From contig CATKHK010000132.1 of assembly GCA_949751835.1 (NCBI GenBank), positions 19,048-83,047 of the forward strand: DNA of 64,000 nt, given 5' to 3'. Below are positions 34,940-63,801 of the stretch, piece by piece; position 1 is the stretch's first letter, and every line of letters begins with the position of its first letter. The position numbers and the translations under genes are program-made. A model generated the notes under the pieces. That model was not told where the DNA came from, ran no database searches, and worked only from the letters and a program-made list of their open reading frames with translations. This DNA comes from Blepharisma japonicum (taxonomy: Eukaryota; Ciliophora; Heterotrichea; Heterotrichida; Blepharismidae).

Positions 34940-35553
34940 AATAAGTTAATTTAATCATTACTATTTATCATTAAAGGAATAATAAATAATATTTTCATCG
35001 CCTTTTGTTACTTCCCAATCATCATTGAAGGAATTATTTTATGAAAAATGAAGATTGATTGAGGAATCCAATTGAAGCGCAAATATCTAGAGAACCTTTG
35101 GCTTCACTCAGTAAAGTCTAGAGCTCTGAATAGACTAAGACAGCGTGAGGTGCCTTATTTTATTTAATATATTTTTGCTATTAAAAATAGAGATTTTGGA
35201 TATGGTAATGCAGTAAAACTTTAATTTATACTTATTTTAATAACTTATAATAAAATTCCATGAATTTATATACTGATTTAGCTACTTAAATAATATTATA
35301 AGATTGATTTCATTAATTTTTAAACAAAATTTAAATAACTAAGATAAAAGTCTAATATAATGAATTATTTGCTAAACGAATTTAAAAAAGAGAAATATAA
35401 AAGAAATAGAGAATCAAGACCAAACAATAAAGCCAAATCCTCCATCAATAATAAATTCAGCAAATTATTAGAAGACGAGCTTGCTGGTGCTAAAACATTC
35501 TTGGAGAAAACTTTTCCCATCGAATGATTATTTCTTGGTGTATTAAATAATAT
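34940..35553 (+). other. Gap between secreted paralogues with one small ORF
   Basis: 614 bp. A 79-codon frame (35360-35599, TGA as Trp) starts MNYLLNEFKKEKY, is Lys-rich, and overlaps the start of the next gene in another frame. It may be a relic. Otherwise AT-rich with nothing seen. Confidence 0.35.
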
Positions 35554-37011: not shown

Positions 37012-37062
37012 TGTTTACATTTAATTAAAATTTATAGATAAAAATAAAAAATCAAAAAAATT

Positions 37063-38526
37063 ATGTCTTCTCTACTCCCAGTGCTCCTTTTATTACTCTC
37101 TAATTTTATTGAAGGCATAATTATTTATGAATTTATCCCAAACAACGCAGGTCTATCAAAAATTGACCTTTACATGAAATTCGGTCTAACTAAAGCACTT
37201 CCAGCAAACAGCATGATAGCAATTGGTGCAGACTTTGCAGCTTATAGCTATGCTGATGGCGATATAAAAGATTACTGCTGAAGCAGTGTAGATTATTATT
37301 CTTGTCAAATAAGTAGCGGAATAATTCAAATCACGACATCATTGAGCATCCCTGCATTTACTGCCATGACGTTTTATTTTGACAATATATTTGATTTCAC
37401 ATCTCAATCTGCTGGAGATTCTGCATTAGGATTTTCTGTAACAACATCGTGGAGTAGTGTTACTATAACACAAGATGCTAGCAGCACTAATATTGTCACG
37501 ATTGGAGCAAACGTTGCTAATACAGTCACTAATTGGTGAATTATTGTAGATAATCCAACAATAGGCGAAATGACTAATCTTGGGTTTAATTTTACTGCTA
37601 GCAGTGCTGTAAATCCAGGTGACAATGTTTTAATTAAATTTGATAGAGCTTTTAACCCATGAATTGCAGAGCCAGGAGAATTAGATATTACAGATAAAAA
37701 TGATCAAAACTTATATTATGTAGATTGCTTTTCTTATACTTTAGGAAATATTCAATGCACAGCTGGACATTGATATTTAAATGTAACAGGTGTGACTAAA
37801 ACAATAGGCTCAGGAATTTTAATGGACGTATGGATAAAAAATGTATTGATGCCAGACTTAAGCAATCTGCATTGTGTTTTATATGTTTTTAACTCAGCTT
37901 ATCAATTGAAAATGTTTTCTGAAAACGATGGATATTTTAGCATAGCAAATTCTCTTCCTGCAAATTCAATTGATATTAAAAGTGTAAGCCTTTCTGATAG
38001 TTATTTATGGGATACTTCTACCTATTCTTTTGAATTTTACCTTGATTTTTCCTTGACTTTAACAAATGATTATTCATTTTATATTCTCTTTCCTCAGCAA
38101 TATAATTTTAAAGGTAATTATACCCAAATCCCCTGCAGTGCAAGTTATCAGGAAGACGGAGGGGCCGTGACTCCTTGAATCACCTCACAACGCTGCAGCT
38201 TTAATAATAATTATGTAATTTTCAGTATCCCCCAGAATGCAGGCTCTTATTCATTCTCCACAACGACTAAAATATCAATAGGTTTAGAAGGAATTATGAA
38301 TCCCAGATGGGCACAAATAAACCCATGAACTTCTGCCTGAGGCGAAACAAATTTTTATGGGGATACTTATTATGTCAGTGATAAATTTGAAATTGAGGTT
38401 TTTCAAGAGTCAGTGAGCCAAATCTTAGGTAGAAGTTTTGGATTAATGCACAGTGGATACGTCGGGCTGAATAAAGCAGTCCAACAATTTACATTTAAAA
38501 GTGCTCAAAATTGCAAAATCTATTAA
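37063..38526 (+). CDS. Secreted protein, tandem family member 3 (divergent)
   Basis: 487 residues with TGA as Trp, stop TAA. Same layout as members 1 and 2 but more diverged and more Ser/Thr-rich: signal peptide MSSLLPVLLLLLSNFIEG, DYCWSSVDYYSC, NPGDNVLIKFDRAFNPWI, TLGNIQCTAGHWYLNVTG, PQQYNF, GIMNPRWAQ. It is 51 bp downstream of member 2. This older copy helps define the family core. Confidence 0.75.
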
Positions 38527-39993: not shown

Positions 39994-40480
39994 AATTTAA
40001 AAGATCTTATTGTAATAAGAAAAATAAATGGCTATCTTTTATAAGAGATAAATTATCATAAATATAGCTAAAATCTCACATAAATATAAGCAATTAAATA
40101 AAACAAAAATTAATATGCATTATACTAACAAAATGAAGCTAAATAAATTTCTATATGAAAAGTTAATTAATTTAATTTTCTTATTATTTGTTTTAATATT
40201 TGACTCTTGGGCACTACCAACCTAACTCAGCTCTTACTTTTCCTCATATATTTACGATAGATTATTTCCTATACAAAAATTTTCATTAATTAATATATCT
40301 TTATTATCCTTATATACTAATTTAAAATCTCATAAATCTTCTTCTTAAAAATTTGCTTCATTTTCCCTATTTTTTAATTCGCTAAAATTATGCTTTTCAA
40401 CCGTCCATAAGTGTCAACTATTAATGATCTCATATGCTCCCAAATCCGTTGAGCTGATTAAATTTCTAATAATCCTTATA
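39994..40480 (+). other. AT-rich gap before the cyclase genes
   Basis: 487 bp, mostly A/T, with no frame that looks coding. An in-frame ATG at 40424 would add 19 residues to the next gene; the ATG at 40481 is preferred. Confidence 0.4.
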
Positions 40481-43147
40481 ATGGAAGAAGCAAAAAGTCC
40501 AACTCGTGGTGGCATCAACTCTCGAAGGACCACGATTGCAGAAATCCGTCACAGTTCTGAGCTCTTCAACCCTATTCGGGACCTACTCGCAGCCGCAAAC
40601 AAACCTCTGCTTTCCAAATCACAAGATGTGTCCTTTGCATCAAGAATGACTGGTTGCCTTAACCATTGATCCTATACAACTTTCATGACGTTTTTAACGA
40701 TCTACGCATTATTTGCGGACGATTTTCGCTTAGCTTTGACTTCTAAACCAGCTGATGACATCTTTTATGGTTTTACAACTGCTTGCCTATTTTTCTTCTC
40801 TGTCGAAATAATTCTTTCGTCAATTTTTAAGGAAGGATATTGGCTAAGCTTTTTCTTTTGGCTAGATGTGGTATCAACGTTATCACTCATCACCGATATT
40901 GGCTGGATTTGGAATGAAATGGTAGGCACTAGTTCTATTTCTAAAGGTGCAAAGGTCGCAAGAGCAGGTAGAGCTTCCAGAGCTGGGACACGTGCTGCAA
41001 GAATTATCAGGGTAATTCGCGTTATCCGGCTTATAAGAGTTGCCAAACTCTATAAAGCCGCGAAATCGAATATGATAAATAAGGATAAAGAAGATAAAGG
41101 ACAGTTAAAGCGAGCCAGAGTGATATTCAGGGGAAACCAAGTCGCTGATATAAAGCAATTTGTAGTCTCTGCACAGGCGCCAGTCGAAATCGACAGCAGT
41201 GATTCTAGCAATAATGCGTCAGCTTCCCAGTCCTTTAGCTCAATGTCTCCTCAAGATCTTAATGGAACTCCTAGCAATGAAGAAGAAAGCAGGGAAGAAA
41301 TTGTTTCGGATCAAGAAGAAGCGGACATTGCAGACTTAAAAATTCCTGAAGAATCAAAAATAGGCAAAAAACTGTCAGAATTGACGACAAAGAGGATCAT
41401 TATATTGGTGTTGAGCGTTATGATAATGCTACCGTTTTTTTCGACGACGTTTTATAATGAAAGTAACGTTTCTTATGAGTATGGGCTTGAAATTATAAAT
41501 GACCTGATAGGAACGTCAGGTTTTGATTTAGCCTTTGAAGATTACGTTTCTGAGCACAAAGATCTTTATACACCTCTGATATTTTTAGAGGTGAATAATT
41601 TAAAAAACTGAAGCTCAAGCGTAAACGTCGATGATTTAAGGTCAACTGAGCAACTTACTGTTACTCTTTCAGGGGTTCCTTCTGACTACAACTATTCAAG
41701 CTACTCTGTTTTTGATTTGCGTAGCTCCACCAAGCTAGACGCTGAGTTGAGTATCGTAAAAACTGTTTTTATTTGCCTTATGCTAAGTATATCTGCTATT
41801 TTTCTATCAAAAGATGCTCAAGATTTAGTTCTTGAGCCTCTTGAAAATATGATGCAGACAGTTAAAAATATATCAAAAAACCCTCTTAAAGCTGCCCAAA
41901 TCGCTGAAAGTGACGAATTTTTGATGGAAGAAATGGCCCACGATGACATTGTGGGACAGAAGAAGAAAGTCAAAAGTTCTATGGAGGCTGAGTTTCTGAA
42001 AGAAACTATAAATAAAGTCACTATGCTGCTAGCATTAGGCTTTGGAGAGGCTGGCTCCGAAATTATAGCATCAAACATGCAAAAAGGAGGCGGAGAAGTA
42101 GACCCAATGATCGCAGGTAAGAAAACCTACTGCATTTTTGGGTTTTGTGACATAAGAAATTTCACTGATACAACTGAAGTATTAGAAGAAAAAGTTATGG
42201 CTTTTGTCAACGACATTGCACATATAGTTCATGGCTATGTGGACTATTTTGCAGGTTGTGCTAATAAAAATATAGGTGACGCATTTTTATTAGTTTGAAA
42301 AATTAATGATGAAAATATGCTAAAAGAAGCTGAAAAAGACACCTTGGCAAGGAAAAATCCGTTTGTTAGGGAACTTGCTGATATGGCGGTTATAAGTTTT
42401 TTGAAAATTATAGCTGAAATACATAGGAATCCTAAAGTTTTGAAATACAGAGAGCATCAGATGTTAAATGAGAGGCTTCCAGGGTATTCCGTGAAAATGG
42501 GATTTGGGCTGCATTTAGGATGGGCAATTGAAGGAGCTATTGGAAGCGAGTTTAAAATAGATGCATCTTATTTGTCACCTAACGTTAATTTAGCTTCAAG
42601 ATTAGAAGCTGCTACCAAACAGTTTGGTGTCCCTATTTTAATTTCAGACGCTTTATGGAGACTGTGCAGCCAAGTCACAAGATCCAAACTTCGAAAAATC
42701 GACAGAGTCACTGTTAAAGGCAGCAAAGAGCCAATCGAGCTTTACACTTGTGACATTGACACAAACAACCTAAAACCTCGTCAAGAAAATGACACTGAAA
42801 CCACTGAAGGAATGAAAAAGTCAAGGATTATGGCAAGACTAAGAAAGCAAGCCTTCAAAAAACGGCTCGTAAGCGACGGATACCATGCGTATCAGCTATT
42901 TAATGATGACGAAGATCTATTGATGATGAGATCTAGCGTCAGTCATAAATTCGTAAAAACCTTTGGAAAAGCACTAAAAAATTATCTCGATGGAGATTGG
43001 GATAAAGCTATTGAAGGGTTTAATAAAGCTCAATTTATCAAGAAAACTCCTGATGGGCCATGCAGGGCACTTTTGGAATTTATGGAGCAGGAAGGTGGAA
43101 GAGCGCCTGATTTTTGGCCGGGGTATAGAGAGCTTCATGATAAATAA
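40481..43147 (+). CDS. Voltage-sensor / class III nucleotide cyclase / TPR fusion, likely active
   Basis: 888 residues with TGA as Trp. Residues ~50-190 form four membrane segments ending in an S4-like helix with Arg every third position (RAARIIRVIRVIRLIRVAK). A Ser/Asp-rich linker has one FRG motif near residue 216. A membrane segment (~305), an extracellular stretch and another membrane segment (~425) precede the class III cyclase domain (~540-770). Metal aspartates D557 (FCDIRNFT) and D600 (IGDAF), base-selecting K596 and D694, and transition-state N703 and R707 (VNLASR) are all present, favouring adenylate cyclase. The tail (~830-870) resembles one TPR. Channel-cyclase fusions are known from Paramecium, Tetrahymena and Plasmodium; no pore loop is evident here, so voltage may gate cAMP synthesis directly. 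Confidence 0.85.
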
Positions 43148-43547
43148 TTATTTAAGAATTTTATATGATTTTATATTGAACTTGCTTATTTTGCATGAAT
43201 TTGTGCTAAAAATAAGTTTTGATATTTATCCAGACCTTGTCTTTTTTATAATTTTATATATATAGTAGAGTTTAAGATAATATATCTCTATGAACTCTTT
43301 TTATCCTAAAAGGAGTTTAAAAATGACCTCTAAATATGCATCTTTAAACCAAATTACCAATTAAAAATCATTAAAATTACAGTTAATTTTGCCGTTCCAA
43401 TAAAAACTTATTAACTATTTTTAAATTTCTTATCTTTATTATTCCTTTTCCCCTAGAAATTTCCTATTGCTACAATTTATATATAATTTTTCTAATTTTC
43501 TGCTCTAGAAACAAAAGTAAAAGCTTGCTTTTTTATAAAAATAATAC
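43148..43547 (+). other. Intergenic, no gene seen
   Basis: 400 bp of AT-rich DNA between the two cyclase fusions, with a GTTTAAGATAATATATCTC stretch and poly-A runs. No coding relic noticed. Confidence 0.45.
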
Positions 43548-46500
43548 ATGGAAACAAATGAATCAAATGGAGCAAGTATTGATATTCGAAGATTCAGCTC
43601 AGAAATACCCCTCCGAGAAATCATTTCGGCAGCTTACGGCCCACGCGGCCAAACTCGCTTTCAAAAGCTTAGAGCATTTTGTAAGCAAATTCTAACTCAC
43701 TGAGGGTATGCATTTTGTATGATCCTTCTTACGCTTTTTGTTCTTTTCTGTGATGACATACGCTTAATTGCAACATCAAAAAGCACTGATGATATATTTT
43801 TCAGTTTTGTGACAATTTGTATGGCTTTTTTTGCCTTTGATATAATTATCTCATCAATTATTATTGATAGGTATTTTCTTTGTTTTTTCTTTTGGCTTGA
43901 TATTGTCTTAACGGCTTCACTTATAATGGATATTGGCTGAATATGAGATCAAATAACTGGAGATAATAAAATTACTACAGGAGAAGGCACTCAAGCTTCA
44001 AAAGTCCAAACTGCAAGCCAAGCATCTCGTACAGGGACTCGAGCAGCCAGAATTATCAGAGCCCTAAAGACAATCAGATTAATAAGAATTGCAAAATTAT
44101 ATAAAATTGCTCAGTCACAGACTGAAAAAAAACAAAGCAGCCAACAAAAATTAGAAAGGTCGCCTGTGCTTTATAGAGGAACGGATAATCCTATTAATGT
44201 CAATTACAACCAAATACAAGATGTTCCCCAAGGAGATCTCAATAGCGGGTCAAGTTTAAGTGCTGGCGAAGATTCATATAGCCAAGTCAGCAATGAAAAT
44301 CGGCTTGATAGAGGAATTTGTGCATTTAGAGGGCCAAATTTGCCTGTAATTAATGATGTTTTGGCTTCTTCAGCTGGAGAAGTAAATTTAGAAATCAGCT
44401 CATCAAGGCCAAATACGACGAATTCTTTTTCTTCAGTATCAGTTTCACGGCATTTTTTCCCTACTACGGAGCTTCAAGATCCCGCTAAATTAGAACGAGC
44501 CATAATACAGTTCAGAGGGTCACATGACCCAGCTGTCCCAAATTCTATTAATAACTGTTGGGACCGTATTGACTCTATTGGAGCTTCTAATGAAGGCTCT
44601 GAATCACAGTCATTTTTAACGTCAAAAAATTCCAATAAAGAAATTTTGACTGAAAATAAGCTGGACAGAGCTGTCAATGTATTTCGAGGCAATCTGGATC
44701 CAATTTCGGATAAAATAATTAATCAAAGTGCACAAGCTATGGATACGATAAGGACAAATAGCAATTTGTCAGAATCTCAGTCATTTTTAACAAGCAGAAG
44801 CATAAGCAGAGATTTTTTAGATGAAAATAAGCTGGGAAGGGCTTCGATTATTTTTAGAGGAGAATTTAATCCGATTTCTGACCAAATAACAAATGAAAAT
44901 GTAGAAGGAATCGATACAATAAGAAGCTGTAGCAGCATATCAGAATCACAAACATTTTTGACGCCAAAGAGCTCTGATACAGACTTTTTCCGAGAAAATA
45001 AGCTGGAGAGAGGAATTATTGCCTTTCGCGGTGACTTTGAGCCCGTTTCTAACCAAGTTATAATACAAAATCCTGTCAGGATGGGAACCTTAACAAGCAA
45101 TAATTTTTCAGAATGCCAGTCATTTTTAATGTCAGATGTTTCTGGAGAAGAAAAGGCTAATAAAACCTTTGATCGAGCTGTCATAGTATATAGAGGAAAT
45201 TCTGAGCCAATTTCTAATCAGTTTATATACCAAAATATAAATAGAATTAATACACTAAAAAGCAATACGGATTTCTCCCCATCTCAATCTTTCAGTGACA
45301 CAAATTCTCAAAATATTATTAGGTCAAGTCAAATTTCTGAAGAAAATCGGCGGAACCATGGAGGATCTGTTGATGGGTCAATCCAAAGCGATTTTCTTTC
45401 ACAAATGAAAAGGCGAGAAGAAGAATTGAAAATAGGTGAAGACATAACAGATGTCGCCACAAAGCGAGTCATTATTTTGGTTTTCAGTGTTTTAATCATT
45501 ATTCCTTTCTTTTCTACAGCATTTATTCAAGCAGAGAATACGTCTTATCAATATGGATTATCAGTGATCAATACGCTGCTTACAGATAATGATACTGATG
45601 CAGAGTTTGCCTTTAATCAGTTTGTGGATGATCATAAAAATTTATGAAATCCATTGATTTATTTGATGGTGAACCATACTAATATGATATATAAATGCGA
45701 TGTAGATCCTGATGAATTAAGACCTCTAGAACAATTAACAGCAGTTTTGCCTGATGTAGATAATGATTATTACTATTTTAGCTATGCTGTTTTTGATATG
45801 AGACATACAACAAGGCTTGATGCAGAACTGAATATGATTGAAACTGCTTTTATTTGTGTGCTTTTGATGGCAGCGTCTACTTTGATAGCAAAAGATACAA
45901 AAATGATGCTTCATGGACCTTTTGGAAAAATGATAGAAGACTTAAAAGCTATCTTAAGAAACCCTCTAAAAGCAGGGCTTAAAGCTCAAAAAGAAGAGCT
46001 TAAGCAGCCTCGGCAAATCCTTAGAAATGACAGCTGGAGGTCTATTTTAGGAAAAGAAACGACTGTATATGAAACTAAGTATCTCCAAGCTACTGTAAAT
46101 AAAATTGCGATTTTATTAGCATCAGGGTTTGGAGAAAACGGGATGAAAATAATTGAACAAAATTTATCAAATGCAGATGGAAGCATTGACACTTTAGTAC
46201 CAGGTAAAAAAACGTACTGTATATTCGGGATATGCAAAATCAGAAATTTCAACGAGACAACTGAAATTTTGAGAGAAGATGTTTTAGGGTTTGTTAACCA
46301 AATAGCTCATATTGTTCAAAGTGTGACGGAGTATTTTTCAGGACACATAAACAAAAATATGGGAAATTCATTTTTGATGGTATGGAAGCCATATGAGACA
46401 AATTCAATAGAGATAGAGGAAAATGAAATTTTATCCGATGAAAAATTTTCATCTGTAAGTGAAATAGCAGACATGTCTTTTATATGTTCTCTAAAAATTA

Positions 46501-47237
46501 TTGCAGGTATCTATAAGCATCCTTACATTCTAAAGTATAGAGACCATATTGAGCTTACGCAGCACATGCCTGGCTATTCTGTACAATTAGACTTTGGGCT
46601 GCACTATGGATGGGCTATTGAAGGAGTTATTGGGAGCGAATATAAAATTGATGCATCTTATTTATCTCCAGCATTAGAAGTATCGAAGAAAATGGAATCA
46701 TTGACAAAGCATTATGGAGTTCCTCTAATAATCAGTAATTCTTTGTATGAAATTTGTTCTGAAGAAGCCAAAGCAAAATTGAGAAAAATAGATAAAATTC
46801 AATTGTCATTGGAAGGAAATATGATTCCTTTAGAATTATATACTTGTGATATAGCGCCAGAGTTACTAAAACCATATGAGAAAATTAATTCAGAAAATAT
46901 GAATAAATTAAGTAAAAGAATCAAAGAAAGAAAAGAAAATTTAAAGAAAAAAATAGCTGCTGGAGAGTACAAAGTAGCTCAGCTACTTGAGCATGATAGA
47001 GATTTATTTGTAATGACCAATTGCGTAAGTGAGAAATTTATTAGAACTTATGGAAAGGCATTGAATTATTATATGGAAGGAAATTGGGCAAAGGCCAGAG
47101 AAGGGTTTATTAAAGCTCAGCATCTGAAAAAGTTTGATGATGGGCCTTGTAGAGCACTTTTAGAATACATGAAAGATATAGGTGCAAGCCCACCTGAAAG
47201 CTGAAAGGGGTATAGAGAAATTAATGAAAATGATTAA
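43548..47237 (+). CDS. Voltage-sensor / pseudo-cyclase fusion with expanded linker repeats
   Basis: 1229 residues, TGA as Trp, stop TAA. Same layout as the upstream gene: four membrane segments with S4 (RAARIIRALKTIRLIRIAK), linker, two membrane segments, cyclase domain, TPR-like tail. The linker has grown to ~400 residues by tandem repetition (see the repeat entry). The cyclase fold is kept (KTYCIFGICKIRNF, NKNMGNSFLMVW, IDASYLSP) but metal Asp 1 is K897 and metal Asp 2 is N940. The VN-x3-R transition-state motif reads LEVSKK, losing both Asn and Arg. The base-selecting Lys and Asp positions remain. It should not make cyclic nucleotide; it may act as a regulatory or decoy subunit. Confidence 0.85.
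44148..45312 (+). repeat. Seven tandem ~57-residue FRG repeats in the pseudo-cyclase linker
   Basis: Each unit starts L-[DEKG]-R-A/G-x3-F/Y-R-G, runs on to P-I/V-[SN] and ends in a Ser-rich [ES]-SQSFLT-type segment. The F/Y-R-G codons sit at 44172, 44325, 44511, 44682, 44853, 45024 and 45189, so steps are 153, 186, 171, 171, 171 and 165 bp, all multiples of three. Units 3 to 6 are the most alike (57-codon period). The neighbouring active cyclase has a single copy (RVIFRG at ~41120), so expansion followed gene duplication. Confidence 0.85.
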
Positions 47238-51371: not shown

Positions 51372-52199
51372 ATGTCACTCAAGCCTGATAATCTAGCAAT
51401 CCAAAAGCGCCCAACAATAAGAACAAAAATAGTCACCCATCTTCTCTCTTCAATTGATCTATTACAAAATGACCTAAAAAATATTAAAAAAGAACCAGTT
51501 AAATCTTCCTCAATTGATACCTTAAGAATCCTCACCCAAATATCATCACCAAAAACAGGAATTACTTTCAATAGAACTAAGACATATTTGAAAGGAAAAA
51601 GCCGGATTGAGCTAATCAAAAATAAAGAAGAGTTAGAAAAGCATAAACAAAAAGAAAAAAACGCTTTGCAAATCATTTATGGGGATAACCCACAGCACAA
51701 GAGATATATGACTCAAGAAATTTTCACTGATAAAGAGACCTATAGACTTGTGCAAAATAATAAAAGAAAATACGGTCCAGATAGAACGAAATCAAAATTA
51801 AATATTCAATTTTTTGAGACACCTAAGGCGAATTATCAATATAGAAGAGGAAAAGAAAAGGTGGTTGCAAAAGAAGAAGTTGCAAAAGGGCTGAATTCAA
51901 TTTACTTTAATCATATGTATAGAAACTCGCCAAGAATTATTAAAAAAAATTTATTAAAAAGCATCGAAGAATCAAAAATAAAGAGTTGCTCTTTAGCTTC
52001 TTTATCTGAATTTTCGAGTCGCAGTTCGCCTGTTGGGAAGCTTGAATTGATTTCCAAAAAGACTATTGGGGATGAAGAATTAGATAAATGCATACAATCT
52101 GTCATAAAAAATCATTCGAAAGAATCAGACCAAATGAAAACAAAGCTTGGCCTTGAATTATCGAAATCTCCAAAAGTGAACTTAAAAGCATTTAATTAG
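51372..52199 (+). CDS. Basic protein, unknown (parent of the 56.7-kb copy)
   Basis: 275 residues, ATG to TAG, no TGA needed. Highly basic (Lys/Arg ~20%), Ser-rich, no membrane segment. It has a short Gln/Arg motif (YQYRRGKEKVVAKEEVAKG) around residue 160. Family unknown. Its 3' half plus about 75 bp downstream (51743-52276) recurs at 56690-57221 with a few point changes and two single-base deletions, so it was the source of, or sister to, that copy. Confidence 0.65.
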   Translation: MSLKPDNLAIQKRPTIRTKIVTHLLSSIDLLQNDLKNIKKEPVKSSSIDTLRILTQISSPKTGITFNRTKTYLKGKSRIELIKNKEELEKHKQKEKNALQIIYGDNPQHKRYMTQEIFTDKETYRLVQNNKRKYGPDRTKSKLNIQFFETPKANYQYRRGKEKVVAKEEVAKGLNSIYFNHMYRNSPRIIKKNLLKSIEESKIKSCSLASLSEFSSRSSPVGKLELISKKTIGDEELDKCIQSVIKNHSKESDQMKTKLGLELSKSPKVNLKAFN

Positions 52200-52519
52200 A
52201 TGTGCTTAAAATAATTTTTTCATAATTTTAAAGGAGCATTTTGATTAAATTCTTCAAGAGGATGACTAATATCACATTAATTAGTTAAATATCCATAGTT
52301 TTGCTCTCTGCTGGATTTTTGAGAATATTATATTTATTTTCAATAAATTTAAGAGTAGATTCAATAATTTTCGTCTAAATTAAAGACCTAACAATTAGTT
52401 AGGTCCGTTATTTTATATAATTTTTTCAAAAGGCCCGAAACTCTGAATGGCAAAGTATCTTGCAAACATAAAAAAGCTCTCAACGAGGCCAGCCTCTAGC
52501 AATATTCCAATCAAGAAGC
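52200..52519 (+). other. Intergenic, no gene seen
   Basis: 320 bp. The first 77 bp are shared with the duplicated copy at 57145-57221. A GACCTAACAATTAGTTAGGTC palindrome (52385-52405) between convergent genes could form an eight-pair hairpin. Otherwise nothing. Confidence 0.5.
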
Positions 52520-52804: not shown

Positions 52805-53686
52805 TTATGGACCTGCACCCAAATGATCATCTGAGAAAATTTATAATAAAAAATTATAAGATCAAAAAAAGTCTCTTACGAGAAGCCAGGATAATTATAA
52901 TTTTTAAAGAGTTATTATTTTTTAATTTGACTAATCATACAAGGCTTAAAGACAGATTCAGTCTATTTAATTTCAAGAAATAAATTCATAATTTTTTTAA
53001 CCCAAAAACTTCAAAATTTTAAATCTAATATTGAAATCGATATTATAACAGCTATAAAGCTTAAGAACAAAAAATAATACTTCTCTCAAAATGATCCAAA
53101 TATTAAAAGTTGCTATTTATACGGTTGATAGCTTTCGAAGAAATGCAAAGTATGCTATTATTAATTCATCAGCATTTAAGCACTACTAGCTATAAAGGCG
53201 GAAATAGCCCTTATTTCCTCATATTTCTATTTTATTCTTTTATTTCACTTTTTGTTTCTTTTAGTCTATCTTCCTCGATTCATTTATATTTTATTCAACT
53301 GTTTTGCATGCCTTCATCAATTTGATATTTTTTGCATATTTGTTTAATTAAAGCTCTTCTTTGTGACAAAATATTGAATAATATTTATATTACATATTTG
53401 AATTACTGTAGAATCGTGATGAATAATTATCAATTAAATCTTAAAAGCCAATAAATCATTATCATTAATAAATTATGGAAAGAAAGCTTGACACTCCTCA
53501 ATTCTTCTACAGATCTCAAGCATGTTCTTAATGATCCAAACCTACTTACAGAAGATATGGGTCAGATTTAAGAACCCAAAGTGGTAACTAGTTCTTAGGT
53601 TTTAGAGCCACCTATATTAGATAATAAAATTTCATATGATTATGAAAATGGAGTCACTTGAAATATAAATTCAGAAAGAAATATTG
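52805..53686 (+). other. Gap with relics
   Basis: About 880 bp. It includes 53599-53712, a 37-codon protein-like stretch ending in TAA (LEPPILDNKISYDYENGV..) that overlaps the end of the Rab-like gene and resembles the 48.05-kb relic. A short MERKLDTPQFF start occurs at ~53475. No intact gene. Confidence 0.4.
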
Positions 53687-54248
53687 TTAATGATTTAAAA
53701 TATATGGGATAATACTAATAACCAGCAACTGAAAGGGTTTTTCTAAATTAAATTCACGCGTAATAGATATTTCTATATATATTACCCCAAGTTGATCAGC
53801 AAGCTCTTTTCCTTCGTCATATGATACAACTCTTTGATTTTCTAAATCGCATTTATTTCCTATCAAAATGATTGGGACCCTTTGATAAATTCCCTTATCG
53901 ATTAGATCTTTTCAAACTATAACTTTCTTAAAAGAACTTCTATCAATTACACTAAAAAATATAAAAAATCCATGCGCACCTCGTAAATAAGATTGAGTAA
54001 CGGAAAGAAATCTTTGGTTTCCTGATGTATCTCATATATGCGACCTAAAATATTTACTGGAATGTTTAACTGTTTTAATCCACTGAGTAAAATTTTACAA
54101 AATCAATACCGATTGTTGGAAAATATTGATCAGAGAAGCAATTTTCATTGTATTGTAATAGCGATGATTTTCCAGTGCATATTTCTCCTACAATAGTTAG
54201 ATTTAAGAGATAATCACTGAATAAATTTTACTAGGTTTGGATTTCCAT
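53687..54248 (-). CDS. Rab-like small GTPase, copy 1
   Basis: 176 residues from three exons after removing introns of 15 nt (54217-54231) and 16 nt (54083-54098); two TGA as Trp. GTPase motifs: P-loop GEICTGKSS, switch I/G2 FPTIGIDF, G3 WDTSGNQRF (canonical WDTAGQERF, so the catalytic Gln position is Asn), G4 NKCD and G5 EISIT. The protein ends ILNH with no C-terminal cysteine, so no prenylation, unlike normal Rabs. It is about 90% identical by eye to the inverted copy at 57.3 kb, including intron positions and ~65 bp upstream. Both copies are open, so both may be used. Confidence 0.82.
54083..54098 (-). other. 16-nt intron 2 of Rab-like copy 1
   Basis: Minus-strand GTAAAATTTTACTCAG. It differs at one base from intron 2 of copy 2 at 57456-57471, and the position is the same (after the switch I GIDF codons). 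Confidence 0.85.
54217..54231 (-). other. 15-nt intron 1 of Rab-like copy 1
   Basis: Minus-strand GTAAAATTTATTCAG, identical to intron 1 of copy 2 at 57323-57337. Confidence 0.85.
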
Positions 54249-54521
54249 TTTTCAGAAGAATTATTTTTATGGATTTCAACAATTATAATTATTCCTTACT
54301 TTCTTTAATTTTTAATAGCTAGTATATCGAGCTCCTGAGTATCCTTTAAAAGTTTCCAAAAATTTTATTTTACTCTTGATAATGGCTTTTGGCTTGCTTA
54401 AGAGTTTTAATATGCTTTAAGATGCTTTGCTCATCAGATTTTTGACCAATTGAAAACACACATATAAACGAAGTAATAATTATTATATTTGGAAAATTTA
54501 ATAAAAGCAATAATTATTATT

Positions 54522-56138
54522 CTAAATATCTTCATTTCTCTGAGGATAAGCCTTTCTTCTTGGGCAATCTTTTGCTCTATGCCCATCATCATCACAAAAG
54601 TAGCAATTGGGGCATCATTTCGTCTTATGTTTAGCATCTCCACACTTTCTACAATGGTTTGGGGCGCCTTTTAATCTTTCTTCTTGCGCTCTTCTTTCAA
54701 TAAAGGGTTGCACAGATTGATAAATCATTTTTAAATTGTCATTATCTGAGAGTTCATCTACATAATGTTGGAGCCTTTCTTCGTCCATCAAGCATGTGTT
54801 GTGTATAAAGTAATTAAGACTATACTTTGTCTTTAAAATCTGCTCAAATGTAGCAATATCCATTCCATATTCTCTGAATAAATAATTTTTCTTGCAATCT
54901 TCTAATTCATTCATGTCTATTCCCTTGCGCAATGCTGTCTTCTCGATTTCTGAAATACAATAGCATCTTTCGCCTATAAATCCACTTAGCTCTTTCATTA
55001 GGTCATTTCTCAAATCAGCTATGATCTCCCTCATTTTTGATTTAAACTCAATCTCTTCGAGTCTTACTATTTTTGTTTCATTGTTAGAAATCTGAAGCCT
55101 ATTTTTACTAATCTTTTTTGCACATGAGTCATTTATTTCTATCAAATCCTCATTTCTTTCTTCCATAAATTTTAGTTTCTGTTCAAGCTTTGCAATAGCT
55201 GCATCATAAATTTTATATTTTGCTTCACTTTTAACTCGGATTTCTTCAATCCGCTCTTCAAAGTTAGCTGTTAACTTTTGCTCTTCATTAATGCTTTTAA
55301 ACTCTGTAGTCCGTCTAGTATAACTTTCTTTGTGGTATTTTTTCTCTTCCTTAGCCTTTTCAGAGATTTCTTTGTCTTTTAGAAGTTTTTGGATTTCATG
55401 AATTTTCGAAGCTTGTTCTATATTTTGATCTTTTAGCATCTTATTGTCATTTTGAAGCAAACAAATTTCATTTTGCAGCGACCTTATTGAATCTTTTAGC
55501 TTAATAATTTCATTTTGAAGCGACCTATAAGAATTTTTGAGCAAGCTATTTTGCATTTCATAACTATCAATTGTGGCGTTTTTTTCTTCTAATGCATCAA
55601 TTGCTAATTTCTGTTGTAGCTTGAAATAACCCATGAGTGCTTGATTGACTCAATGTTTATTTTTGACTTCATTTTGAAGATACCTAACCTTTTCATTCAA
55701 CTCTTTATTTTTAGCTTGAATTCTTTTTTTTGCCACGTATATGTTTTTAACAAATGTCTTGAGATTTTCTAAGTATTCAAGAGCTTTGGTAATCTGATTT
55801 TCTAATTCTAAGTTTAATTTTGGATCTAGCGTTGAGAGAGAGAATTCTGGAGAATTAGCTTTAAAGGACTCCAATTGTTTCATTTCTTGAATTACTGAAG
55901 GAATAGTGGAAAAAATCTCTTCAATTTGTATTAGATCTTCTTTCAAATCTTCATCTGAGGTGCTGATATTTAGCTTGTTGAGCTTTTCTTCCTCACTCAA
56001 AATTAATGCTCTAAGGTGGTCAATTCTTTCTCTGGCAACTGAAAATAACTGTAGGTCTTCTTTGGATTCTTCACCTATATTAAGAGCGCTATTGACAAAT
56101 TCTAATGGATGATCTGCGGCGTTACTTTCCTGCTCCAT
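54522..56138 (-). CDS. Coiled-coil protein with two CCHC zinc knuckles
   Basis: 538 residues from MEQESNAADH (an ATG at 56180 would add 14), stop TAG. Reading TGA as Trp joins two long frames and also completes the first knuckle. Residues ~60-400 are largely coiled coil. About residues 400-500 form a helical domain, not recognised (EYGMDIATFEQILKTKYSLN). The end has two knuckles, CRKCGDAKHKTKWC and CYFCDDDGHRAKDC, both C-x2-C-x4-H-x4-C, so nucleic-acid binding is likely. Similar knuckles occur in retroelement Gag and in host RNA-binding proteins; no other Gag or polymerase feature is present. It sits between the inverted Rab-like pair. Confidence 0.8.
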
Positions 56139-56689
56139 ATTGTTTATAATAGTTAATTTTCTAATCAAACCTATTTGCACCTAATAGCGTATCTAATTTT
56201 CATTTACTCAAAGATCGCAAAGATCGATCAATCTAAACTTTTTCTTTAAATATTGAGCTTCTGTATAGCAACTGCTTGGCTATTTTCCTTTTCTTAGACA
56301 ACAAGAATCTATCAGTAAACTCTTCCACTACACCATGCCGACAGCAGCCGTCTCTTTTCCATGTCAATAAAAGGAGCTCATGTGCCTATTATAAGTATTC
56401 CAAAAGATTACTAATTTAAATAGTAAGCAGGAATAGGGACTAAGACTCTATATTTTGTTATATCTAAGCCGCTCTGAAAAGCCAGGATATTTGATTCCTG
56501 CTGTTTAAGTCATTTTTAGTCTGCAAAGAGAGATACTTTGTCCTAGTTTATTTAGATAAAGAGCTAGATGGACTAAGCAAGAGTGGAGCCTTATAACTAT
56601 GCCAAGATTTACTTAGACTGGACTCCTGTAGCTATAATCAAAGAGAAGGGTTCACACTGTGATGGTTTGAGGAAAATGGTGCAAAAGGG
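56139..56689 (+). other. Gap before the duplicated segment
   Basis: About 550 bp. Mixed-composition sequence; a stretch reading FLRQQESISKLFHYTMPTAA at ~56290-56350 may be a relic. From 56583 an ORF (MEPYNYAKIYLDWTPVAI..) runs into the duplicated segment, making a chimeric frame of 106 codons that is probably accidental. Confidence 0.4.
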
Positions 56690-57221
56690 TAGACTTGTGC
56701 AAAATAATAAAAGAAAATACGGTCTAGATAGAACGAAATCAAAATTAAATATTCAATTTTTTGAGGTACCTAAGGCGAATTATCAATATAGAAGAGGAAA
56801 AGAAAAGGTGATTGCAAAAGAAGAAGTTGCAAAAGGGCTGAATTCAATTTACCTTAATCATATGTATAGAAACTCACCAAGAATTATTAAAAAGATTTAT
56901 TAAAAAAAATCGAAGAATCAAAAATAAAGAGTTGCTCTTTAGCGTCTTTATCTGAATTTTCGAGTCCCAGTTCGCCTATTGGGAAGTTTGAATTGATTTC
57001 CAAAAAGACTATTGGGGATGAAGAATTAGATAAATGCATACAATCTGTCATAAAAAATCATTCGAAAGAATCAGACCAAATGAAAACAAAGCTTGGCCTT
57101 GAATTATCGAAATCTCCAAAAGTCAACTTAAAAGCATTTAATTAGATGTGCTTAAAATAATTTTTTCATAATTTTAAGGAGCATTTTGATTAAATTCTTT
57201 AAGAGGATGACTAATATCACA
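56690..57221 (+). pseudogene. Broken partial copy of the 51.4-kb gene
   Basis: 532 bp that match 51743-52276 (534 bp) at well over 90% by eye. The copy lacks the first ~125 codons. It has lost one A in the A-run at ~56893, which shifts the frame into a TAA at 56900, and one A downstream of the stop. Non-coding and coding parts have diverged about equally. It is therefore a duplicated fragment, not a working gene. Confidence 0.85.
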
Positions 57222-57305
57222 ATAATCACGCAGCTATTTAAGATTAAAGAAAGTAAGGAATAATTATAATTGTTGAAATCAATAAAAATAATTCTCTTTT
57301 GAAAA

Positions 57306-57873
57306 ATGAAAAGCAAAACCTGGTAAAATTTATTCAGTGATTATCTCTTAAATCTAATTATTGTAGGAGAAATATGCACTGGAAAATCATCGCTATTACA
57401 ATACAATGAAAAATGTTTCTCTGATCAATATTTTCCAACAATCGGTATTGATTTTGTAATATTTTACTCAGCGGATTAAATGAGTTGAACATTCCAGTAA
57501 ATATTTTAGGTTGCATATATGGGATACATCAGGAAATCAAAGATTTGTATCCGTTACTCAATCTTATTTCCGAGGTGGGCATGGATTTTTTATACTTTTT
57601 AGTGTAATTGATAGAAGTTCTTTTGATAAAGTTATATTTTGAAAAGATCTAATCGATAAGGGAACTTATCGAAGGGTCCCAATCATTTTGATAGGAAATA
57701 AATGCGATTTAGAAAATCAAAGAGTTGTATCATATGGCGAAGGAAAAGAGCTTGCTGATCAACTTGGGATAATATATATAGAAATATCTATTAAGGGTGG
57801 ATTTAATGTGGAAAAAGCCTTTCAGTTGCTGCTTATTAGTGCTATTCCATATATTTTAAATCATATTCAATAG
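57306..57873 (+). CDS. Rab-like small GTPase, copy 2
   Basis: 178 residues from three exons (introns 57323-57337 and 57456-57471), stop TAG. P-loop GEICTGKSS, G2 FPTIGIDF, G3 WDTSGNQRF, G4 NKCD, G5 EISIK, with TGA as Trp at KWVEHS and IFWKDL. It has no C-terminal Cys (ends ILNHIQ). It is the inverted sister of copy 1; differences are mostly amino-acid changes outside the nucleotide pocket, so the pocket seems to be under constraint. Asn in place of the switch II Gln suggests slow GTP hydrolysis. It could be a Rab-like regulator that works without a lipid anchor. Confidence 0.82.
57323..57337 (+). other. 15-nt intron 1 of Rab-like copy 2
   Basis: GTAAAATTTATTCAG; without removal the frame meets TAA after five codons. 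Confidence 0.85.
57456..57471 (+). other. 16-nt intron 2 of Rab-like copy 2
   Basis: GTAATATTTTACTCAG; removal restores the frame from switch I into RIKWVEHS. Confidence 0.85.
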
Positions 57874-57918: not shown

Positions 57919-59412
57919 ATGTTAGAAAAACAGATAGAATTAGAGACAGTTACAAGTCCAGACTCTAAAGAAGTTTTCAATTCAAATATTTACTTTTATA
58001 GAGAATATAGGCCTGAGTATCCATGATCTTTAGATTTAAATGACTATTCTAAACAATTGTTGCAAATTAAATCAGATGAATTTGCTCAAAAACAATTTTG
58101 AATACTTTGCTCACTTCCTAATAATAAAGTTCTTTGCTTCTGAAATCGCGGCAAAAAAGACTCTGGTGCATGGTTTTCTTTAGATTCTCAAGGACATATT
58201 TTTCGCTTTAAAAAACCTTCTCATAAAGAAACAGCAAGACCAATTGCAGTTTATTATAAAAATGATATAGTTTATATTTTTGGATTTATGAAGTGATACA
58301 AGCTGGATATATATAGAAATATATATTTTACTATTGCTGGAAGAAGCAATTCTTCATACTATTCCTGTACTTTACTTTATGATTATATAATTATTTCATC
58401 GGAGAAAAGTATTTACACGTTTGAAGTCTATGACATTTTAACTAATTCAAAGTCGACCATGAATAGTATTGAGATAGGTGGAGTAAAACATTTATTTACG
58501 CTAAATGAAAATCTATATGCAGTTGATTATAATGGATATTTATTTTCATTAGGCTTTTGGAATTTAGATGAATGAAAATTTATGGGAATCATAAAATATT
58601 GAGGAATTGATAAATTTTCTTATTGGCTGTACTATAATAATGATGCCTATTTTATGACTAATTGTATAGAAGTGGTAAAATTTAGCATAAAGCTTAACAA
58701 TATAGATGCAGAGATAAGTCAAATTTACCCTATCCCTAAAAAAGAAATCCGAAGACTAGACGATTCAATAACCTATGAAAATATATTTTCTTCTATCTTA
58801 CCATCTTGAAAAGAATTGTTTAATCCTGCTATAAATGAATCATTAAAACATATTTGAAGCTTAATTACTTTTAAAAATTTTGAAATTGGAATTTTTCCGT
58901 TTATTTTGAAAAAAAAAATTGAAATTAAGAAAAATTACCCTAATTTAGATCTCAATAAAAAATTTGGTTATATTTTTGAGTCATTTAGGAAGAAGGAGCC
59001 AAGAACTATAAAAATTATTATTTTGTTCCCAAATCCAAAAAGATTTTATGACTTTCAAGAACTGGCAAAGAGGATTGAATCTATACGTAACGATTTAAAT
59101 GTTGGAAAAATCAAAAAATTAAAAAAAAATATTGTGGTTCTTTCTCCGATGATTGTTTCTAAGTTCACTGGCGAAAAATCAATTATATTAAAAGAATTTA
59201 CAATCGAAATGACAAAAGTATTAAACACTATATTGGATAGAGCTGTGTTTATGTTGTGAGGAAAAGAAGCAAGAAGCTACCTAGAATTTGTTGACCAGTC
59301 AAAGCATCTCTTGATAGAAAATGTAAATTTATTATCATTGAATGAAGAAAAAATTAAAAAGTTTAAAGATTCTGAACAATTCCAGTTAGCTTATTCATAT
59401 CTTTATGGCTAA
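57919..59412 (+). CDS. Propeller-like + degenerate uracil-DNA-glycosylase-fold protein, array member 1 (intact)
   Basis: 497 residues, ~9 TGA codons as Trp, stop TAA. Residues ~20-270 are repeated beta blades (QFWILCSLPNNKVLCFW, WFSLDSQGHIFRF, DIVYIFGFMKW, NLYAVDYNGYLFSL), probably a propeller. Residues ~295-497 follow family-1 UDG order: SWKELFNPAINESLKHI, then IGIFP, TIKIIILFPNP where UDG has VKVVILGQDP (369-373), IVVLSP where UDG has LLLNAV, AVFMLWGKEA where UDG has VFLLWG (W447), then DQSKHLLIENVNLLS where UDG has the HHVL..HPSPLS block. Catalytic Asp of GQDPYH is N372 and the HPSP His is N468, so base excision is unlikely. I infer a retained fold used for DNA or protein binding. Confidence 0.65.
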
Positions 59413-60159
59413 ATTAATATTTTTAATGCTGCATTTCTATTATTTGAATTATTTTAATATTCATTTTTATTAATAAGAAATAATGGGATATCAATAGTAA
59501 AATATAATTTGAAAAAATTATATAAAATATTTTACAAGCCCCTAATATATATTTCTATCCCTTTATTGCTAGCTGTGACTTATTATGATAGGCATTGGGT
59601 TGCTGTTGCGGGTCATAGAAGATGTACAATATTGCTTATGTAAATGGATACAGAAAAATTTTTCTAGTACTGCAAAAAAAAACATGTTAGGAGGTACTTT
59701 CTCTTGTAATTCTAGGCGATTTTGAGTGACTTCATCTGCATGATGCATTGTGCTCAAATTTCTCTGGAGCTTATTATTTAATTGGCAGTGATTGTTCTAG
59801 CTTTGCAGTTCTCGTAGTAAATGCTTGAATAAATGCTTTGGAGAGCAAAACGCTAATAGATATAGAGATATGGATGCAATTGATTGTTTGTGCTATCTCT
59901 CCATAATGTTTCTTACAATAGTAAATAATGAATAAATAGTAATTTCCACTAATATTTGTATCAAGAATTTGCATAATATCATGCGATGACTAATCAAATC
60001 CGATTGTGATTTGCAAAGATTGTATATTTGAAAATTGAGTGAAAAATTAATAATATGATAATATTGATGTATAAAGAAAAAGGCTCTTGAATTATAAGTT
60101 ATTTTAATAATAAATTAATTTTATAAAATTTAATTATATTCGTTTTAATAGAAATTAAA
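59413..60159 (+). other. Gap with minus-strand relic
   Basis: 747 bp. On the minus strand 59974-59570 reads in pieces as protein (ISGNYYLFIIYYCKKHYGEI, FIQAFTTRTAKLEQSLPIK) broken by several stops. It is an unidentified relic between array members 1 and 2. The rest is AT-rich. Confidence 0.4.
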
Positions 60160-61674
60160 ATGTCAGGAGAGCAGATGAGATCAGATTCATGCCCTGTTTG
60201 ATCTCAACTCACTGAAGACAAAGGAAACTCAATTATTTACTTTTATAAAGAACCAAAACCAGAGCAAACATACGTTTTAGATGTCAATAGCTTAACCAAA
60301 AATACAATGCAAATTCTTCGGGAAGAATGCTCCAAAAAACAATTTTGGATCCTTTGCTCGCTTTCTAATAATAAAGTGTTTTGTATTTGGCAAGATAATC
60401 AAAAGAAGTTGGGTACTGTATTCTCTTTGGATTCTCAAGGAAATACTTTTAATTTTAAAATGCCTTATAAAAAAGATATATTAAAATCGAGAATTGCAAT
60501 TTATGATCAAAACGATATGGTTTATATATTTGGATATAGAAGATGATATAAACTTGATATATATAGGAATATTTATTTTGTTATAGCTGGAGGAAGTTAT
60601 CGTACCTATTATTCTTGTGTTTTGATATATAATTATGCAATACTTTCCAGCGAGCAACAAATTCACACATTTGATGTTTATGACATTGTCACTAATTCTA
60701 ATTCAATCATGAATAATATTGAAATAGGCAAGGCAAAACATTTGTTTTCTATCGATGAAAATGTTTACGCAGCTGATGCTTGCGGATATTTATTTTCATT
60801 TGAACTGTGAAATTCAGATGAATGGAAGTTTATTGGATCTATAGGGCCTTGACAAATTGAGAATTTTTCTTATTGGCTTTATTGCAATAGCGAAGTTTAT
60901 ATAATAACTGAAAATTTTAATATTTTAAAATTTGATATGAAGCAAAATAACCTCAATGTTGAATTAATCAAAACCTCCCCAAATCCTCAAAGAGAAATTC
61001 ACGAGATCAATCGCTCAAGAATTTATGAAGATAAAAATTTTGATATTCTCCCAGTATGAAAAAAAATACTTAGTCCTGCAATAACTAAAGCACTAAAAAT
61101 ATTCTGGTATTTTATTGCAATAGAGAATAAAAACATCGGTATTTTTCCTACAGTTTTAGAAAATTCTCCAGGTAGATCTGGCTGATTCTTAATTGCAGAA
61201 GCCTATGAAAAAATAAATTATTTTTTTGAGTTATTTAGAGTGAAAGGGCTAAAAAACAAAAAAATTATTATTTTAATATCAAAACCTAAGAAACCAGTTG
61301 ATTTTAATTCTTTAATTCTGAAAATAAATGCAATAAGGAAAAGTTTAGATGCTGATAAAACATTGTCAAAATTGAAAAAAAAAATTATTGTGCTTAGCCC
61401 ATAAGTAGTTTTAAATCATATGACTGGAGAAACATTTAATGTGTTTAATGAATATATGATTGAAATGGCAAAAGTTTTAAATTCCATGTTGATGAAAGCC
61501 GTATTTATGCTATGAGGAGGGGAAGCAAGAAGATGCTCAGAATTTATTGATCAATCAAAGCATCTAATTATAAAAAATTCAAATATATTTTCATGGGACA
61601 CTAGTTCTGAAAAATATAAAAAGTTTTCTGGGCTCAAGCAGTTTCAATTAGCACACTCATATCTTTATCAATAA
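60160..61674 (+). pseudogene. Propeller/UDG-fold array member 2 with premature stop
   Basis: Same layout as member 1. The frame is open (TGA as Trp) for 414 codons, then meets TAA at 61402-61404, where members 1 and 3 have sense codons (VVLSP-M and IVLSP-A). Beyond the TAA the same frame continues with good similarity to the real end (MTGETFNVFNEY, VFMLWGGEARR, QFQLAHSYLYQ). A single nonsense change, no frameshift, suggests recent loss or readthrough. Motif A position reads LISKPKKP and motif B KNSNIFS, so it too lacks catalytic residues. Confidence 0.7.
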
Positions 61675-61860
61675 AATAATTATATATAAAATTCAAAGAT
61701 TATAATGCTTTAGATTGTTTTATTGGTGAACCAGCAATTTAGCTACATAAAACTTAAACTTATATAAATTTGCTTTAATGAATCTTCAAAATATATATTA
61801 ATTCCCAATTTCATACTTTTTGAAAATTAAAAACAAGTTAAAGCTATTCATATAATAAAA

Positions 61861-63445
61861 ATGTCACACCGACATATAACACCAAAAGCAGTTACAAGCC
61901 CTATTGTATCTCACAAATCTGAAGCTATATCAAATTCTAATATTTATTTTTATCGAGAGCATAGACCGGAGCATACATGCTTTATAAATGTAAATGATTA
62001 TTCTAAGAGCTTAATGCAAATTCATTCAGAGGAATTTGCACAAAAGCAATTTTGGATTCTTTGTGCACTCCCAAATAATAAAGTTCTTTGCTTTTGGCAT
62101 CATAATCAGAAGGATTCAAGCATTTTATTTTCTTTAGATTCTCAAGGGAATATATTTAAATTTAAAATACCATCACATAAGGAAATATCAAGAGCGATTG
62201 CAGTTTATTATAAAAATGATATGGTATATATATTTGGGTTTAAAAAGTGATATAAGCTAGATATGTATAGAAATATTTATTTTACTATTTTTGGGGGAAA
62301 TAATCATACTTATTATTCGTGTGCATTGATTAATGATTATGTCATTATTTCAAATGATTGAAATTGCCACACTTTTGAAGTTTATGATATTTTGACTAAT
62401 TCTAAATCTACTATGACCACTATTGATATAGGCGGGCCAAAGCATTTGTTTACACTTCAAGAAAATCTATATGCTGTTGATTCTGATGGATATTTATACT
62501 CTATAGGTCTGTGAAATTGGAATGAATGAAAATATAGTAAGTCAAAATCTTTTAAAACATAATTAATAAAAAATTTATTAAAAATAATGTTTTTATAAAT
62601 GAAAATTTATGGGAGTCGTTAAGAGGTGGGGAATTGATAAGTTTTCTTATTGGCTATATTACCATAATGATGTTTATATTATGACTCTTAACCAAGATAT
62701 GATAAAGTTTGAATTGAGACATAATAAAATCGATGCAGAGATAAGTCAAACTAATCCAGATATTGTCAGTGGCATTCATAGATTAGACAGCTCAGTAATT
62801 TTTGAAAAGACACTAAAATCATTCCTGCCTTCATGGAGAGATCTGCTTAGTCCTACAATAATTGCTGCCATAAACCTAATTTGAAGCTTAATCGTATTGC
62901 AAAAGCAAAATCTTGGACTTTTCCCTTCAGTTTTGAATAAAAGTCCAGGTAATGAAAAATGATTTGATAATTTAGAAGTTAATGAAAGATTAAATTATTT
63001 TTTCGAAATTTTTAAAAAAGACCCAAGAACTATAAAAATTATTATTTTGATTTCAATGCCAAAGAAAAAACTAATTGATTATGATAGGCTAGTTGAAAAG
63101 GTTAGTATGATTCGTAGAAGTATAGATTTGAATCATAATTGGATAAAATTGAAAAAAGATATTATTGTTCTTAGCCCTGCAGTTATTTTTAGGAATGTGA
63201 CAATTGAAACATCAAATCAATTTAATGAATTTGTGATTGAAATAGCTCACGTTTTAAATTCCATTTTGAATAAGGCGGTATTTATGCTATGGGGAAAAGA
63301 GGCAAGAAACCATTCAGCATTTATTGACCAATCTAAGCATCTTGTAATAAGAAATGCCAGCTTGCTATCAACAAATGAAGAGAAAATCAAAAAGCTTCAA
63401 GATTCCAAGCAGTTTCAATTAGCATATTCATTTATTTATCACTAG
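61861..63445 (+). pseudogene. Propeller/UDG-fold array member 3 interrupted by a 73-bp insertion
   Basis: The 5' part (61861-62533) is open and close to member 1. At 62534 a 73-bp AT-rich insertion shifts the frame and adds a TAA at 62560. The 3' part (62607-63445) then continues in the shifted frame to the normal end (stop TAG), with the UDG-like region whole: FPSVLNKSPGNEKWF, TIKIIILISMPKKK, IIVLSPA, VFMLWGKEA, DQSKHLVIRNASLLS. Without the insertion the gene would be open and ~504 residues. Either it is broken, or the insertion is removed from DNA or RNA, or two proteins are made. Confidence 0.7.
62534..62606 (+). mobile_element. 73-bp insertion between 9-bp direct repeats
   Basis: The 9-mer AATGAAAAT occurs at 62525-62533 and again at 62598-62606, flanking the extra sequence; member 1 has one copy at the same place. 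The insert is ~85% A/T, begins ATAGTAAGTC and has no coding content. Length, AT-content and flanking repeat fit a retained internal eliminated sequence or a small MITE with target-site duplication. A slippage-type duplication is less likely, because the insert is not a copy of flanking DNA. A GTAAGT at 62537 could be a splice donor, but 79 nt is far longer than other introns here. Confidence 0.5.
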
Positions 63446-63801
63446 AAGTATAATTAATTATTATAAAAATATATGATTAAGGGTTTAAAATTTTTTCATA
63501 AGTTTATGCAATAAATGCCAAATAAGCTCTTCATAATCTAAAAAGAATTTGGATGCTTAATATAGTAAATATGATAATGCTTATTTATAAATTTAAAATG
63601 ACCATAAGTTAGCCATTTTAAATTTTACTAAAATCAAATCGATATGAAGCTTTAAGAATTTCTTGTAGAGCCATCATTCATATCTCCAAACTTAGTAAAT
63701 GCAAGTTCATTTAATTATAGTGAATATAATAATTCTGATTTAAAATTTAACCGACTGCTACATACATGACGTAAACAACTTTATTTTAATCCTTACTCAC
63801 T
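63446..63801 (+). other. Intergenic, no gene seen
   Basis: 356 bp of AT-rich sequence between the last array member and the gene at the right edge. No relic recognised. Confidence 0.45.

Follow-up and report, generated by a model that had tools for sequence, protein, structure and literature searches.

A tandem gene array in Blepharisma japonicum encodes proteins in which a predicted Kelch-type propeller is joined to a domain that appears to derive from a family-1 uracil-DNA glycosylase (UNG) and to have lost its catalytic residues. We propose, with a probability of about 0.5, that the product is a non-catalytic, two-handed binding protein of the Blepharisma lineage. The window, by which we mean the whole stretch of 64,000 nucleotides analysed, forms the right end of the 83,047-base contig C132, within a genome of 45.2 Mb. 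The copies were translated with TGA as Trp, a reading that they require and that agrees with the ciliate host and code assumed in the preliminary description. Three paralogues lie in tandem on the + strand, each with a propeller-type N-terminal half and a C-terminal half carrying UNG-like motifs:

57919..59412, + strand: copy 1, the intact propeller and UNG-like fusion gene, 497 aa (open reading frame list and homology searches)
57919..58803, + strand: predicted Kelch-propeller half of copy 1, residues 1-295 (homology to in-genome paralogues)
58804..59409, + strand: UNG-like half of copy 1, residues 296-497, pI 9.7 (HMM, profile-profile comparison and AlphaFold model)
60160..61674, + strand: copy 2, architecture as in copy 1, broken by an in-frame TAA
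61402..61404, + strand: the in-frame TAA of copy 2, with Leu at the equivalent site of the duplicate on contig C168
61861..63445, + strand: copy 3, architecture as in copy 1, split into two frames (61861-62562 and 62609-63445)
62535..62607, + strand: 73-bp insert in copy 3, extra relative to copy 1, with TA at both ends (62535 and 62608)
62831..63442, + strand: UNG-like half of copy 3 (UNG HMM, NCBIfam and PDB search)

The array had been described beforehand as one of three proteins. Three tandem paralogues are indeed present, but copies 2 and 3 are interrupted and copy 1 (497 codons) is the sole open full-length frame among the window copies. Contig C168 carries duplicates of window positions 60699-61702 (97.6% identity) and 61814-63518 (96.0%), and with them two further copies of the family, both truncated or split: its copy 3 is split in the same way as that of the window, while its copy 2 lacks the N-terminal part and has Leu in place of the stop. 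Matches to CCCTAACA repeats number 77 in the forward and 91 in the reverse orientation (0 and 0 for the reversed control), and among the matches listed such repeats occur near the ends of several contigs. The assembly is presumably mainly macronuclear.

The array is flanked by a patchwork of duplicated segments, in which positions 51743-52281 pair with 56690-57226 and positions 53658-54320 pair in inverted orientation with 57897-57232 (96.7% and 92.5% identity). Broken frames resembling small GTPases (Ras/Rab), named by eye, occupy 57280-57873, with an inverted copy within 53658-54320; more of them lie on C168 (L031, L034), so that they are repeated on both contigs. The same C168 loci carry tandem multi-pass membrane proteins of ~341 aa (judged by eye), the single one tested being without a Pfam match. 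Also recognised by eye were a coiled-coil protein of 552 aa with two CCHC-like zinc knuckles at its end (54522-56180, - strand), three tandem paralogues of 485-492 aa with signal-peptide-like starts (33461-38526), and two large tandem membrane proteins whose C-terminal part is nucleotide-cyclase-like (40424-47237).

The assignment of the C-terminal ~200 residues to a divergent UNG domain holds across several kinds of sequence search and a structure model. When copy 1 was searched as a single sequence against the PDB (E up to 10), all 20 matches were uracil-DNA glycosylases (UDGs), the best at 1.8e-5, and a profile of four copies gave UDGs in 36 of 39 matches (best 8.2e-7). The second half of copy 3 (E up to 1) gave 28 UDGs among 29 matches (best 0.0022), the second-ranked match being a stathmin-like domain at E 0.0031; no stretch passes alone. 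In NCBIfam, four of four fusion proteins match four UNG models each, with a best E per protein of 6e-7 to 4e-6 and scores of 15-29 bits, far below the curated cut-offs of 162-237; in addition, two of these proteins each match one unrelated model weakly (E 0.061 and 0.14). An HMM built from 34 UNGs picked out 3 of the 717 six-frame segments of the window, which are exactly the three copies (E 7e-12, 5e-10 and 1e-9), copy 2 being found through its tail. Profile-profile comparison of five own rows with UNG gave E 7.5e-12 over 194 columns and a score of 83.4, against at most 20.5 for 60 column shuffles (none as high) and 16.1 for the reversed profile, and the family matches the genome's own UNG with a probability of 94.5 and E 8e-8. 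The UNG type claimed for this half in the preliminary description is thereby upheld, although the Pfam UDG model PF03167 was silent on all fusion pieces given to it (five, then four) at E up to 10.

Most of the profile signal resides in the last 70 residues (E 6e-13). The part before them, which precedes the WG motif, has an hhalign probability of just 7.5% when taken alone; it nevertheless aligns in register with UNG (E 0.0047, score 25.8), and none of 60 shuffles scored as high (at most 20.6). An AlphaFold model of the UNG-like half, with UNG rows included in its alignment, reached pLDDT 80 and matched UDGs in all 50 of the best PDB rows listed, so the UDG fold is apparently kept. A full-length model from eight own rows and no UNG rows was unusable at pLDDT 38.6. 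This failure, the low probability before the WG motif and the Pfam silence are what could be said for a spurious resemblance, with the domain belonging to some unrelated alpha/beta type, a reading with next to no probability given that PDB, NCBIfam, UNG HMM and profile-profile searches agree and that the part before the WG motif stays in register. A mixed alignment of propeller and UNG sequences, run with two MAFFT settings, placed UNGs on the propeller half and was discarded.

Within this half the elements WK/WR, FP, KIIIL-x-x-x-P, (I/V)VLSP, VFMLWG and DQSKHL follow one another in the order of UNG. Their spacing departs from that of UNG P0002 in alignment A3. The segment from FP to the IF..F motif, ahead of the first strand, is longer by about 20 residues, and the segment separating the two active-site motifs, which in UNG contains the Pro/Ser loop, is shorter by about 23. 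The order and spacing of family-1 UDG had both been claimed, of which the order stands and the spacing does not. The residues of copy 1 that bear on catalysis are as follows:

59026..59040, + strand: FPNPK in place of GQDPY, with Asp changed to Asn and Tyr to Lys (alignment A3)
59143..59145, + strand: Ser in place of the UNG Asn, LSP for LNA (alignment A3)
59257..59262, + strand: Trp-Gly of VFMLWG, the Trp encoded by TGA
59326..59328, + strand: Asn in place of the His of HPSP (alignment A3)

The catalytic Asp of GQDPYH is absent, its position being taken by N in copy 1, K in copy 2, M in copy 3 and Met in P0001, a relative from B. stoltei. Alignment A3 has NVNLLS where UNG has CHPSPL, and the HPSP His position holds N in copy 1, N in copy 2 (read from the C168 duplicate) and S in copy 3. 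In the four own rows, which are copy 1, copy 3 and the C168 copies of 2 and 3 and so represent only three paralogues, the Asp position reads N, M, M, K and the His position N, S, S, N. The pocket Tyr is K in four of four rows, the pocket Phe is K, E, E or L, and the Asn of LNA, which we take to be the uracil-reading residue, is S in four of four. Replacement of the catalytic Asp and His in every copy, as the preliminary description had it, is thus borne out, as is retention of WG. We also counted the columns that are filled in copy 1 and at least 85% conserved in 25 UNGs. Of these 67, 23 are unchanged in copy 1 and 18 in all four own rows, the retained residues including W, P, F, P, WG, A and KH; Gly-Gln-Asp-Tyr, the pocket Phe and Asn, and His-Pro-Ser-Pro are among those lost. 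The same loops carry family-specific invariants, K374 for Tyr and S409 for Asn (four of four rows).

Because the aligned catalytic and recognition residues are replaced, and P0001 also has Met at the Asp position, the copies are almost certainly without catalysis. MUG and TDG glycosylases also have Asn at the Asp position, as copy 1 does, and a weak activity of this type might be imagined for it; given Lys or Met at this site in copies 2 and 3 and P0001, and changes to all of the aligned pocket Tyr, Phe, Asn and His, we regard this as extremely unlikely.

UNG grips DNA through its Pro/Ser loop, its HPSP/Leu loop and its GQDPYH loop. In the array the Pro/Ser region is a gap and the other two loops are rewritten, as far as alignment A3, which is loose there, can be followed. 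The suggestion that the copies are non-catalytic UNGs that read DNA without cutting it, perhaps during genome editing, draws on the basic character of the UNG-like half (pI 9.7-9.9, against 9.46 for the catalytic part of the B. stoltei UNG), on the apparently kept fold of the AlphaFold model, and on a host that belongs to a genome-editing genus. It is set back by the state of the loops and by a search of open-licence papers that returned no link to genome editing, the word 'glycosylase' occurring 0 times in the main text of PMC9942806, and we consider it unlikely. Retention of the fold for DNA binding, as suggested earlier, is accordingly not supported, overall basicity alone speaking in its favour. 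DNA is a possible but weakly supported ligand, because the loops with which UNG grips DNA have been removed or altered. Judged from sequence, the reading with the best support, and likelier than DNA binding, is a binding or adaptor role under constraint.

A further alternative is that the domain serves as a decoy for UNG inhibitors or recruiters, such as Ugi-like inhibitors and hijackers. UNG inhibitors bind the DNA cleft. PDB titles do record the UNG surface as a target of inhibitors and hijackers, but that cleft is the most altered part of the domain, which makes a decoy very improbable.

The N-terminal half is best read as a Kelch propeller of a kind common to other genes of this genome. 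When the genome was searched with copy 1 at E up to 10, with 86 of 183 candidates scored, at least 29 places were returned; seven of those 29 belong to the fusion family, one is UNG, and 21 match the propeller half only. The in-genome propeller paralogues show 18.5-28.7% identity at E 1e-13 to 6e-4. Several look like B-box, coiled-coil and propeller proteins and others like propellers alone (named by eye). Ten paralogues, drawn from 22 prepared segments, were compared with Kelch families; a match at E < 0.001 was obtained for nine of them, and seven score above a curated Kelch cut-off. The N-terminal half of the fusion aligns end to end with Kelch paralogues of ~250 residues, 17 of which are 16-25% identical to copy 1. 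A joint propeller profile, in which 17 of the 20 rows are in-genome paralogues rather than fusion copies, found Kelch and designed propeller chains among the best 60 of 113 PDB matches (best 1e-22). Searched alone in Pfam, copy 1 yields no Kelch family and copy 2 yields PF24681 at E 0.17, and the full-length fusion model has strands from 63 to 280 with block-mean pLDDT below 70 throughout. The propeller proposed earlier for this half therefore stands by homology to the in-genome paralogues, and its type would be Kelch.

A Kelch propeller is usually a protein-gripping module. For the two-handed binding protein that we favour, we propose that a beta-propeller of Kelch type, found also in other genes of the genome, some of them B-box-like, was joined to a UNG-derived domain that retained its core but no longer has the residues that activate water, recognise uracil and pinch DNA. 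The propeller would grip a protein partner. The former UNG domain would bind a second partner or a ligand at a pocket rim lined with the family-wide residues PK, LSP and DQSKHL.

A canonical UNG, 94% identical to that of B. stoltei, is encoded separately in the genome, and uracil repair is therefore covered. With 86 of 183 candidates scored and 39 loci scanned, the only UDG-like domains in the genome were those of the array, its C168 duplicate and the canonical UNG. The B. stoltei protein P0001 is an intact relative of 499 aa, 64% identical, and protein searches that scored the 8000 candidates sharing most words returned no other fusion relative. The family is thus lineage-specific, as first suggested, within the range of these searches. 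A scan of viral contigs gave 78 stretches fitting the pattern, and the one confirmed relative is a UNG with GQDPYH. With filters switched off, the family HMM gave 17.7 bits to an open reading frame lying downstream of the C3 propeller gene; none of the motifs was seen in it, and it was set aside as a chance match.

Comparison of copies 1, 2 and 3 gives a dN/dS of 0.15-0.40 over the first ~220 residues and of 0.28-0.46 for the UNG-like half, values that are rough, dS being 0.78-1.25 and near saturation. Both halves are thus constrained between the old copies, with fewer changes per amino-acid-changing than per silent site. The recent C132/C168 duplicates, with 7-9 silent differences each, give 0.39-0.65 and are perhaps under relaxed constraint. 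These higher ratios, the stop in copy 2, the insert in copy 3, the truncated or split C168 copies, and an identity to B. stoltei of 64% for the fusion against 94% for UNG could all be expected of a decaying family, with a drifting domain and a copy 1 that happens to be the last frame still open. Such decay seems to us rather unlikely, since copy 1 is open over 497 codons, the B. stoltei relative is open as well, and the old copies differ under constraint in both halves.

The 73-bp insert of copy 3 is also present in the C168 duplicate (L031) and restores the frame when omitted, though other cuts are possible. The likeliest reading, we infer, is an IES retained in the somatic assembly: short IESs of B. 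stoltei have a first peak at 65 bp and are most numerous at 72 and 110 bp, and one class analysed there consists of TA-bound IESs (PMC9942856). An odd intron is thinkable because GTAAGT lies close to the start of the insert; against this, B. stoltei introns are mostly 15-16 bp (PMC9942806).

The gene family is small and fast-changing. When P0001 is compared in 50-column steps, its first 250 columns lie closest to copy 1 (72-86%, with 48-80% to copy 3 and one step nearly equal) and the columns that follow lie closest to copy 3 (75-86% against 40-69%). This mosaic points to recombination at the domain border, between tandem copies of one lineage or the other. A 29-row tree built for the UNG-like domain sets the family off from UNGs by a branch of ~10 changes per column. 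The AU test rejects neither placement with P0002 and P0003 (p-AU 0.217) nor placement with four bacterial UNGs (p-AU 0.198); placement with all 11 Blepharisma-like UNGs is barely rejected (p-AU 0.0449). A more elaborate proposal would make the UNG-like domain a non-cutting reader or adaptor in Blepharisma nuclear development. The propeller would then tether a partner either to DNA or to a surface resembling UNG, and recombination among the tandem copies would diversify the family; we judge this proposal quite improbable.

Dead relatives of enzymes are common in general, and poxvirus D4 is a UNG that serves as a polymerase processivity factor, with its catalytic motifs kept and no propeller known in it. 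The fusion would resemble D4 in using a UNG-fold protein as a structural part, and differs from it in lacking catalytic motifs and having a propeller. With family-1 UDG (UNG; TIGR00628, PF03167) it shares the core-element order, the WG motif, a UDG-like model and a whole-domain profile match. It departs from UNG in its missing catalytic Asp and His, its replaced pocket Tyr, Phe and Asn, its altered spacing, its position behind a propeller and its scores far under the curated cut-offs. Like Kelch proteins (Kelch_1, Kelch_4, Kelch_6; KLHL20), it has an N-terminal half that aligns with the ~250-residue Kelch domains of this genome; unlike several Kelch paralogues, its propeller is N-terminal and is preceded by no B-box-like or coiled-coil part, as judged by eye. 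UNG also stands beside a propeller in the DDB1-DCAF1-Vpr-UNG2 complex (named in the title of PDB 5jk7). There the two are separate chains, whereas the fusion is one chain with another type of propeller and no catalytic residues, and the likeness may be coincidence. In line with the preliminary description, which knew of no propeller-UDG fusion, the titles and opening lines of abstracts of the open-licence papers listed describe no Kelch-UNG fusion and no inactive UNG of such a kind. The array suggests that a DNA-repair fold can lose its catalytic and DNA-gripping parts and yet stay constrained inside a new protein, and the fusion offers a concrete candidate for this in a genus of ciliates that rebuild their somatic genome after sex.
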